Positions 26,994-29,551 of a stretch of 64,000 nt of DNA are shown here, piece by piece. Source of the stretch: an uncultured Pseudanabaenaceae cyanobacterium (GTDB lineage Bacteria > Cyanobacteriota > Cyanobacteriia > Pseudanabaenales > Pseudanabaenaceae); contig CALGKB010000004.1 of assembly GCA_937927915.1 (NCBI GenBank), positions 186,001 to 250,000 of the forward strand. Direction: 5' to 3'. The notes under the pieces were generated by a model that saw only the letters and a program-made list of their open reading frames with translations, was not told the origin of the DNA and ran no database searches. A program made the translations under genes and the position numbers. The stretch's first letter is position 1. Every line of letters begins with the position of its first letter.

Positions 26994-27693
26994 GACCTGC
27001 CCCCAATCTGTCCCTGGTATTTTAATACGTCTCTTGCTCATCGATGACGAGGTGGAACTAACGAAACCTTTGCAGGCATTTTTACAACAACAGGGCTATT
27101 TTGTCACGATCGCTCAGTCAGGGGAGGAGGGGTGGCAGCTGTGGCAAAGGGAGAAGTTTCACTTGGTCATCCTAGACTGGTTGATGCCTGGTCTGTCGGG
27201 GCTGGATTTATGTCGCCGTTTGCGGCAAGTTGACCCTACAGTGCCCATTTTGTTCCTCACCGCTAAAGATACCCTAGACGATCGGGTGTTGGGGCTAGAA
27301 ATGGGGGCGGATGACTATCTGGTCAAACCCTTTGAGTTGCGGGAATTGCTGGCGCGGGTGCGGGCTTTGTTGCGGCGGGTTAATTATCCCCCTGCCCTCA
27401 GTTACGGCAATTTGTCCTTGGATAGGGATAATTCCCTCTGTCGGCGGGGTGGGCGGGTGATTCATCTGTCAGACAAGGAGTTGCAGTTGTTGCATTTCTT
27501 TTTACAAAATCCCCACCGTGTCATCAGTCACAGGGAGCTAATTCACCATTTATGGGGGGAGGAAAACAGTCCTAATAGTAATGCCTTAGTGGCACAAATT
27601 AAACTGCTACGCCGCAAAATTGACATTCCCCCTGACCCGCCCCTCATCCACACGGTCTATGGCAAAGGCTATTGGTTTGGGCAGAAAAATTAG
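26992..27693 (+). CDS. Two-component response regulator, OmpR family
   Basis: A 233-residue regulator. The receiver domain (residues 12-125) has the acidic pocket LLIDDEVE, the phosphorylated Asp in LVILDWLMPGLSG, the Thr in FLTAKD and the Lys in DYLVKPFELRE. The C-terminal winged helix (about 135-230) ends with HTVYGKGYWF, typical of OmpR-type DNA-binding domains. Its nearest look is RppA/ManR-like regulators of cyanobacteria, but the family is large. No histidine kinase is adjacent. The stop overlaps that of the convergent HAS-barrel gene in TTAG. Confidence 0.93.
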   Translation: MTCPQSVPGILIRLLLIDDEVELTKPLQAFLQQQGYFVTIAQSGEEGWQLWQREKFHLVILDWLMPGLSGLDLCRRLRQVDPTVPILFLTAKDTLDDRVLGLEMGADDYLVKPFELRELLARVRALLRRVNYPPALSYGNLSLDRDNSLCRRGGRVIHLSDKELQLLHFFLQNPHRVISHRELIHHLWGEENSPNSNALVAQIKLLRRKIDIPPDPPLIHTVYGKGYWFGQKN

Positions 27694-28304
27694 GGATGCA
27701 CTTGGGCAAGGATGGCAGCTAAGCGATCGTAGTCGTCCTTGAGGAGGGTGCTGAGGAATCTACCTGCCTGCACTAGCCAGTTGCGGTCGCATTGGCGCAC
27801 TTGATAGACATCCCTTAGGATGGCGCTAATCAGTTCATCGGTGGGAATGCCCGTCGCCTGCCAGAGGGAACGCAAAAAATGAAAGGAGCTAGTGAAGTTC
27901 TCAATTTCCTGGGGAGTGCAGAAATAGACCCCTTGGTGGATTTGGGGAGGACGACTAGGTAGATGTTGATAAATCACGCCGTTGTGACTAAAGCCCAATA
28001 ACTTCACCCGCACTTCTGTCTGGAAGAGAGCAAAAATGTGGGGTTGTTCTTGCCGTAGTTGTTTTAAGCCCATGCCTAAAGCCCTTGCCTTGTGCACAGA
28101 ATCGATGGGGCTGGTGGTGACATGATAAACCACACCGTAGATGATCTCAGGGTTCTCTTTTTCTTCCTCAAAGGATTTAACCCAGCTGGCAAAGGGAGGC
28201 ATCACAGCAAAATCCAGGTTGTCTGGCTGTAAACACTGGGCTAGGTATTCTGTTGTGCTGGTCTCTATTACTTCCGCAAACCGATCGTTGTTGCCGAAAA
28301 TCAT
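27690..28304 (-). CDS. HAS-barrel domain protein (HerA/ATP synthase-type barrel)
   Basis: A 204-residue protein without an ATPase domain. The N-terminal part (about 1-110) resembles the HAS barrel found at the start of HerA: FGNNDRFAEVIETSTTEY, IIYGVVYHVTTSP and a LFQTEVRVKLLGF strand. The C-terminal half is helical and unassigned. It is transcribed divergently from a nurA gene 74 bases away. In archaea NurA works with HerA, docking on its hexamer; here the barrel alone is encoded beside NurA. I recall similar pairs in other cyanobacteria. Function is inferred only. Confidence 0.75.
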   Translation of the reverse strand: MIFGNNDRFAEVIETSTTEYLAQCLQPDNLDFAVMPPFASWVKSFEEEKENPEIIYGVVYHVTTSPIDSVHKARALGMGLKQLRQEQPHIFALFQTEVRVKLLGFSHNGVIYQHLPSRPPQIHQGVYFCTPQEIENFTSSFHFLRSLWQATGIPTDELISAILRDVYQVRQCDRNWLVQAGRFLSTLLKDDYDRLAAILAQVHP

Positions 28305-28324
28305 AAATTTGTCGTGCTCAGTGG

Positions 28325-28353
28325 TTGCGTTGTTTGGTAGTCCGTCCTACACT
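28325..28353 (+). promoter_or_regulatory. Possible promoter for nurA
   Basis: TTGCGT (28325-28330) and TACACT (28348-28353) are separated by 17 bases and lie 25 bases before the nurA ATG, in the 74-base divergent gap. Both hexamers are moderate matches to sigma-70 consensus. Confidence 0.35.
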
Positions 28354-28378
28354 CAAGCATATAGCCGATCGGTGAGGT

Positions 28379-29551
28379 ATGCTCAACTTTGTCAAACTCA
28401 GCGCCCAAATGGCGGGGATGTCCTCCCACCTAGCAGAAGAAGTCAGTCATCTCTCGCGCAAAAGTGCCTGGGCTTTGTCTCTCCTGCAGGAATTACAGCA
28501 AAAACAACGGCAGCTGCAAGAGAATTTTCAGCAGTACCGATCGGGTTTAGCCTTCACTTGTGCAACACCCGTTGACCTCACTCCCTCCCTGGTTACCCCC
28601 TTTACGGACTGCCATAGTGTGATTGCCACCGATGGTTCCCAAATTGCCCCCAACCGCCACGAAATTGCTTACTGCTATTTGCTCAACATTGGCAGAGTGG
28701 TTTTGCACTACGGCACGGGGGAATATCCCACCCTGGACAGCGTCCCTGAGATTTACTACAAAGCCACTGACCTCTACAGGGCAAGGCAATGGGGGATCAG
28801 TGTAGAGGAGTGGATGGGGTTACAGCGACGGGTGGCGGAAGTAAAAAATCTCACGGAACTCTGTTGTGGGCAAACTCGCTCTACTCCTATCCTTGCCCTA
28901 GAAGATGGGTCTCTCATTCATTGGCACTTGGAGTCCTATCCCCCGGAAGCAAGACAGGAATTTCTCACCCCTATTTTGCAGTGTTGGCAGGAGTTGGCAG
29001 CCCGTCGTATTCCCCTGGTGGGCTATGTCAGCGCTCCCCGATCGGTGGAAGTCACCAATTTTCTGCGGCTGTTGGTCTGTCCCTATGCAGCGCCGGCATG
29101 CCAGCAACACTGTGCCCATCTGGCTTTGGAGAATGCCCCCTGCAGTAAGCTGCACCCCCTGCGGGATGCTACCCTGTGGCAAAAGTGCCTACCCCCTGGT
29201 TATGCCTGTGGACTGTGGCAGAGTCAAGCCCGCATCCTAAGTGAGTACGGTGAGCATCAAATTTATGTGACATACCTCAACATAGGGGATGAAGTTGCTC
29301 GCCTGGAAATGCCTGCCTGGACTGCTCTTGACCCCCATCTCCGTCAGCAAGCCCTCCGCATGGTGTTCGCCCAGGTGCAGAAAGGGTATGGCTATCCCGT
29401 TGCCCTAGCAGAGGCCCACAACCAAGCAGTGGTAACTAGTAGCGATCGGCGCCGCTTCTTTCTCCTCCTGGAACAGCAGTTGATGCAATCAGGCTTGACG
29501 CAATTTGGTATTTCCCTGAAAGAGACTCGCAAGCGCCGCAGTATTGCCTAA
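28379..29551 (+). CDS. nurA: NurA-family DNA double-strand break repair nuclease
   Basis: A 390-residue protein of the NurA nuclease family, which in archaea resects DNA ends with the HerA helicase. The first metal-binding Asp lies in VIATDGSQIAPNRH (about residue 84). LALEDGSLIHWHLE (about 183) and the late YPVALAEAHNQAVV segment are also typical. An N-terminal coiled segment (25-60) precedes the nuclease core. A GAGG ribosome site lies in front of the ATG. No HerA-like ATPase is encoded in the window, but a HAS-barrel protein is divergently adjacent. Confidence 0.88.
   Translation: MLNFVKLSAQMAGMSSHLAEEVSHLSRKSAWALSLLQELQQKQRQLQENFQQYRSGLAFTCATPVDLTPSLVTPFTDCHSVIATDGSQIAPNRHEIAYCYLLNIGRVVLHYGTGEYPTLDSVPEIYYKATDLYRARQWGISVEEWMGLQRRVAEVKNLTELCCGQTRSTPILALEDGSLIHWHLESYPPEARQEFLTPILQCWQELAARRIPLVGYVSAPRSVEVTNFLRLLVCPYAAPACQQHCAHLALENAPCSKLHPLRDATLWQKCLPPGYACGLWQSQARILSEYGEHQIYVTYLNIGDEVARLEMPAWTALDPHLRQQALRMVFAQVQKGYGYPVALAEAHNQAVVTSSDRRRFFLLLEQQLMQSGLTQFGISLKETRKRRSIA

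Follow-up and report, generated by a model that had tools for sequence, protein, structure and literature searches.

The NurA-HerA complex, the main end-resection machine of archaea, has been described as containing two types of subunit; to our knowledge, it has been little studied in cyanobacteria. In the locus considered here, a nurA gene (nurA1) lies divergent from a gene encoding a small protein (HAS1) with a predicted HerA-like barrel, and a search with the DUF87 profile found no HerA-type ATPase in the window, by which is meant the whole 64,000-nt stretch of DNA analysed (contig C4, positions 186001-250000). The question raised is what such a barrel does beside nurA, and whether it acts with a HerA or in place of one. 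A sequence-only reading of the locus had favoured the latter, proposing that the barrel protein could replace the docking part of HerA or lend NurA to another motor. The features concerned are as follows, in positions of the window.

27690 to 28304, reverse strand: HAS1, stand-alone HAS-barrel protein of 204 aa (Pfam HAS-barrel, predicted model, homologues)
27921 to 28283, reverse strand: predicted beta-barrel of HAS1, about residues 8-128, like the N-terminal barrel of HerA (Pfam residues 10-105, model strands, Foldseek)
27705 to 27914, reverse strand: predicted helical domain at the C-terminus of HAS1, approximately residues 131-200, where HerA has its ATPase (model helices)
28305 to 28378: 74-bp gap separating the start codons of the divergent genes HAS1 and nurA1 (both other genomes of the genus share the divergent arrangement)
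28379 to 29551, forward strand: nurA1, NurA nuclease of 390 aa (Pfam PF09376, conserved acidic and basic residues)
28631 to 28633, forward strand: D85 codon, within the TDGSQ motif of NurA1 (invariant in 46 of 46 sequences)
28904 to 28906, forward strand: D176 codon, within the EDGSL motif, the second conserved acidic residue of NurA1 (invariant in 46 of 46 sequences)

The identity of the nuclease, already proposed from the sequence, was borne out. The nurA1 product matched Pfam PF09376 over the complete profile (positions 1-254 of 254, E=5.8e-41, above the cut-off), and residues D85, G86, S87, E154, D176, R308, D356 and R357 were invariant in all or nearly all of 46 NurA1 and NurA2 sequences. 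Its profile and signature residues assign NurA1 to the NurA family of nucleases; a sequence search of the PDB returned no match for it. D85 is probably the catalytic aspartate, by analogy with D53 of Deinococcus radiodurans NurA (PMC9960219). At the family level, the source assembly (2.4 Mb, 98.9% complete) contains a single NurA, that of the window.

For HAS1, the Pfam HAS-barrel profile (PF09378) gave 22.3 bits over residues 10-105, slightly below the cut-off of 25.2, and was matched by 21 of the 23 members of the HAS1 family (top E=7.8e-11); HAS1 homologues were present in 54 of 58 relatives. Inspection of the 204-residue sequence and a Pfam search of it revealed neither a Walker A motif nor a DUF87 match, and as judged from its sequence HAS1 is not a HerA, the P-loop ATPase domain being absent. 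The protein is acidic (pI about 5.7), and no match to it was obtained by sequence in the PDB. A first AlphaFold model, built from 24 close relatives, was discarded (pLDDT 54, with meaningless Foldseek matches), and a usable model was built from 73 natural relatives (pLDDT 80.7, pTM 0.78). The latter contains strands at residues 8-14, 19-24, 41-45, 54-63, 97-107 and 125-128, forming a barrel of moderate model confidence (block-mean pLDDT about 61-89), followed by helices at 131-137, 143-148, 155-169, 174-187 and 192-200 (pLDDT mostly 89-95); the helical region, residues 131-200, is highly conserved. When the model was compared with 350,542 PDB chains using Foldseek, 44 matches were obtained at E<=0.001, every one of them a HerA-type ATPase, the top match being 9x1m, the HerA-NurA complex of Thermococcus kodakarensis. 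A viral-fold search returned nothing significant. No signal was obtained when the profiles of HAS1 and HAS2 (a second family, described below) were compared directly with HerA N-termini, a result which is uninformative because the two HerA paralogues, HerA1 and HerA2, also failed to find each other. In HerA, NurA is held by the HAS barrel (PMC9960219). Given a barrel model whose matches were all of HerA type, HAS1 is predicted to be the NurA-docking type of domain found in HerA, carrying a helical domain instead of the motor. An N-terminal HAS-like barrel lacking Walker motifs, as first read from the sequence, is thus upheld by the family-wide Pfam matches, the model and the missing Walker A motif; a prediction showing no barrel fold had been named as evidence that would count against that reading, and the model obtained has a HerA-like barrel.

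The absence of HerA noted earlier holds for the window but not for the genome, since a HerA (HerA1; C7:72774-74468, 565 aa) is encoded on another contig. This protein has a P-loop, matches solved HerAs and carries a HAS barrel of its own that scores above the Pfam cut-off. No nurA adjoins it, so that nurA1 and herA1 are unlinked in the source genome. The sequence-only reading had regarded a HerA elsewhere, with its own barrel and an adjacent second nurA, as an argument against its own proposal; the HerA with a barrel was found, whereas an ordinary adjacent nurA was not.

The distribution of HAS1, NurA and HerA1 was surveyed in one set of 214 genomes of the phylum, each at least 95% complete. 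HAS1 was present in 89 genomes, NurA in 91 and HerA1 in 87; all 89 HAS1-positive genomes contained NurA, and 87 of the 89 contained HerA1. The two NurA-positive genomes lacking HAS1, G045 and G071, have a NurA of a second type, and every NurA-positive genome sampled contained HAS1 or HAS2. Outside the class, HAS1 was found in five genomes from three families, again with NurA in all five; the description of the pair as being of cyanobacterial type was correct but narrow, as non-photosynthetic families of the phylum carry HAS1 as well. Raw hypergeometric P values for the co-occurrence were tiny, but they count genomes as independent despite their kinship; the three genes are scattered in most Cyanobacteriia, so a small number of gains or losses accounts for most of the co-occurrence, and these P values overstate independence. 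Plasmids yielded no relatives of HAS1, viral contigs yielded none of either HAS1 or HAS2, and HAS1 had no PADLOC match.

Some genomes depart from the common pattern. HAS1, NurA and HerA1 are all missing from one family of the class, f2, of which 18 genomes of 1.6-3.0 Mb were sampled, and these small-genome cyanobacteria must therefore process DNA ends otherwise. Two genomes retain NurA1 and HAS1 with HerA1 undetected: G119 and G095, the latter being a single contig of 3.76 Mb in which no HerA1 was seen at any E-value up to 10, and no HerA2. In G108 (L211:4875-6916), nurA1 is broken, with its N-terminal part repeated and frameshifts, while HAS1 and HerA1 are intact; the damage may be real decay or sequencing error.

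The 74-base divergent spacing of nurA and the barrel gene was confirmed from the start-codon positions, and both remaining genomes of the genus show the divergent arrangement too, with different spacer lengths. When the neighbourhood was compared across cyanobacteria, as the sequence-only reading had proposed, adjacency proved local (three of three genomes of the window's genus against none of 20 elsewhere in the class, with no conserved neighbour of HAS1 among those 20), whereas co-occurrence was complete. In G060 and G081, nurA1 and HAS1 lie on the same strand with a 1-nt overlap, the stop codon of nurA1 having one base in common with the start codon of HAS1 (TGATG and TAGTG, respectively), and on this gene order the two form one transcription unit in both families, which are non-photosynthetic. 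Where HAS1 is linked to one of its presumptive partners, as in these two genomes and the window's genus, it is linked to nurA and not to herA.

A second matched set, consisting of NurA2, HAS2 and HerA2, provided a further view of the association. Before the search, the NurA counts were used to list the genomes expected to encode a second barrel protein, namely twelve Cyanobacteriia genomes with NurA2, plus G071; the search found exactly these and G078. HAS2 is thus present in 14 genomes, which are precisely those that encode HerA2 and include each of the 13 that encode NurA2. Its profile aligned with that of HAS1 over nearly the full length (88%, E=3e-6), scoring 46.8 against at most 27 for reversed-sequence decoys; HAS2 itself went unrecognised by Pfam, so that it is tied to the family solely through HAS1. 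In G038 (L219:5227-13681), the order sbcD, sbcC, nurA2, HAS2 (197 aa), herA2 forms an operon-like run, and in G071 nurA2, HAS2 and herA2 follow in a row, so that in both genomes HAS2 lies between nurA2 and herA2 in one run of genes. HAS2 lies 4 nt before nurA2 in G054, and directly precedes herA2 in G078 (L260:7139), an assembly with 7% contamination in which NurA2 was not found upstream of HAS2, or anywhere in the genome at E<=1e-5. Counted by family, the second set matched in eight of eight within the class, the sample containing about 40 families. A further HAS2 candidate, in G253, was rejected, being short, weak (E=0.0065) and interrupted by stops.

The HerA-like predicted fold, the co-inheritance with NurA, the existence of partners for two NurA/HerA paralogues and the operon linkage together suggest that the NurA-HerA machine by which this phylum processes DNA ends probably has HAS1 as a regular third member. 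In the source genome, this machine would comprise NurA1, HAS1 and the unlinked HerA1. HerA would pump duplex DNA into a NurA dimer docked on its barrel crown, and the barrel surface of HAS1 would bind NurA, join the crown of HerA, or both, supplementing HerA's own barrel rather than substituting for it. The helical domain may act as an additional handle by which NurA is recruited, positioned or restrained. We infer physical contact among NurA, HAS1 and HerA, with its stoichiometry and an effect on resection. A three-part machine is also the simplest account of the pairing of each NurA paralogue with a barrel-only protein and a HerA of its own. Against this role of HAS1 stand the scattering of the genes in most Cyanobacteriia, the failure of Pfam to recognise HAS2, and the persistence of HAS1 in G108 beside a broken nurA1. 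A bolder version, which we put forward only tentatively and regard as doubtful, is that all NurA-HerA machines of the phylum are three-part, with a HAS-barrel ring or clutch between the HerA crown and the NurA dimer, in a form specific to each NurA paralogue, and that the NurA-HAS pair is kept, and perhaps works, where HerA is absent.

The original proposal, in which HAS1 takes the place of HerA's docking part and NurA works either with no partner but HAS1 or with a different motor, draws on G095 and G119 and on the linkage of HAS1 to nurA rather than herA. Since HerA1 keeps its own barrel, however, replacement is unlikely as a rule; HerA1 accompanies HAS1 in all but those two genomes, the source genome included, and the position of HAS2 between nurA2 and herA2 in one operon points to joint work of the three. 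We consider this reading quite improbable overall: its first half found no support, and the lending of NurA to another motor would survive as a special case in those two genomes but not elsewhere. Somewhat less improbable, but still unlikely, is that HAS1 is a negative regulator, capping NurA on its HerA-docking face and holding the nuclease inactive until the cap is displaced by HerA or by a DNA end. From PMC9960219 we infer that the barrel could compete with that of HerA for one surface of NurA, and the strict co-inheritance with NurA, even where HerA1 is missing, would suit such a cap; the placement of HAS2 in the sbcD-sbcC-nurA2-HAS2-herA2 run, on the other hand, is equally consistent with a working subunit.

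Chance was also considered, in that HAS1 and NurA might be functionally unrelated core genes of the phylum which happen to lie 74 bp apart. The lack of adjacency and of conserved neighbours in the 20 genomes outside the genus is what this view would predict, but it leaves unexplained the matched gains and losses across both paralogous sets, the overlap of nurA and HAS1 in two other families, the occurrence of HAS2 in repair operons and the fold that HAS1 shares with the NurA-docking barrel, and we hold it to be very unlikely. A role as a DNA- or RNA-binding small barrel of some other process, rather than a nuclease-machine subunit, seems just as improbable: HAS barrels have been classed with DNA-binding small beta-barrels, as in BrxHI (PMC12839542), but the linkage and co-inheritance of HAS1 with NurA argue against it, and its pI is atypical for a nucleic-acid binder.

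Seen against known systems, HAS1 resembles the N-terminal HAS-barrel domain of HerA (PF09378), which docks NurA, in both sequence profile and predicted fold, but it differs in that it is a protein by itself, lacks the ATPase and has a helical domain of its own at the C-terminus. As in the NurA-HerA systems of Sulfolobus, D. radiodurans and T. kodakarensis, a NurA nuclease is accompanied by a HerA translocase; the known complexes, however, comprise two kinds of protein (HerA6:NurA2), whereas the genes of this phylum point to a third, barrel-only protein for each NurA paralogue. The second set of G038, with its sbcD and sbcC genes (Mre11/Rad50-type), recalls the archaeal Mre11-Rad50-HerA-NurA operons. 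A stand-alone HAS-barrel partner of NurA, or HAS1 itself, was not described in the literature searched, although the comparative genomics of FtsK and HerA from 2004 may mention solo HAS proteins. Should the proposed role of HAS1 as a third component be correct, an uncharacterised and near-universal cyanobacterial protein would gain a function, the recruitment of NurA to HerA and its control there would be directly testable in culturable, transformable strains, and the two paralogous sets would serve as internal controls.

The HerA-based defence systems (SIR2-HerA, DUF4297-HerA and TdpAB) likewise have a HerA-type barrel in their motor, and the HAS1 model matched those chains; unlike these systems, HAS1 is adjoined by no defence genes. 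Elsewhere in the source genome, contig C9 encodes a second, divergent HerA-like ATPase (552 aa) beside a 410-aa NurA-like protein with FYAIDGSY and ILRDGTL motifs (L220:890-10502); a shorter reading of the latter gene (317 aa) had no PADLOC match. With DNA methylase-like genes and a further 358-aa protein as neighbours, this locus is probably a HerA-based defence island, separate from the HAS1 finding.
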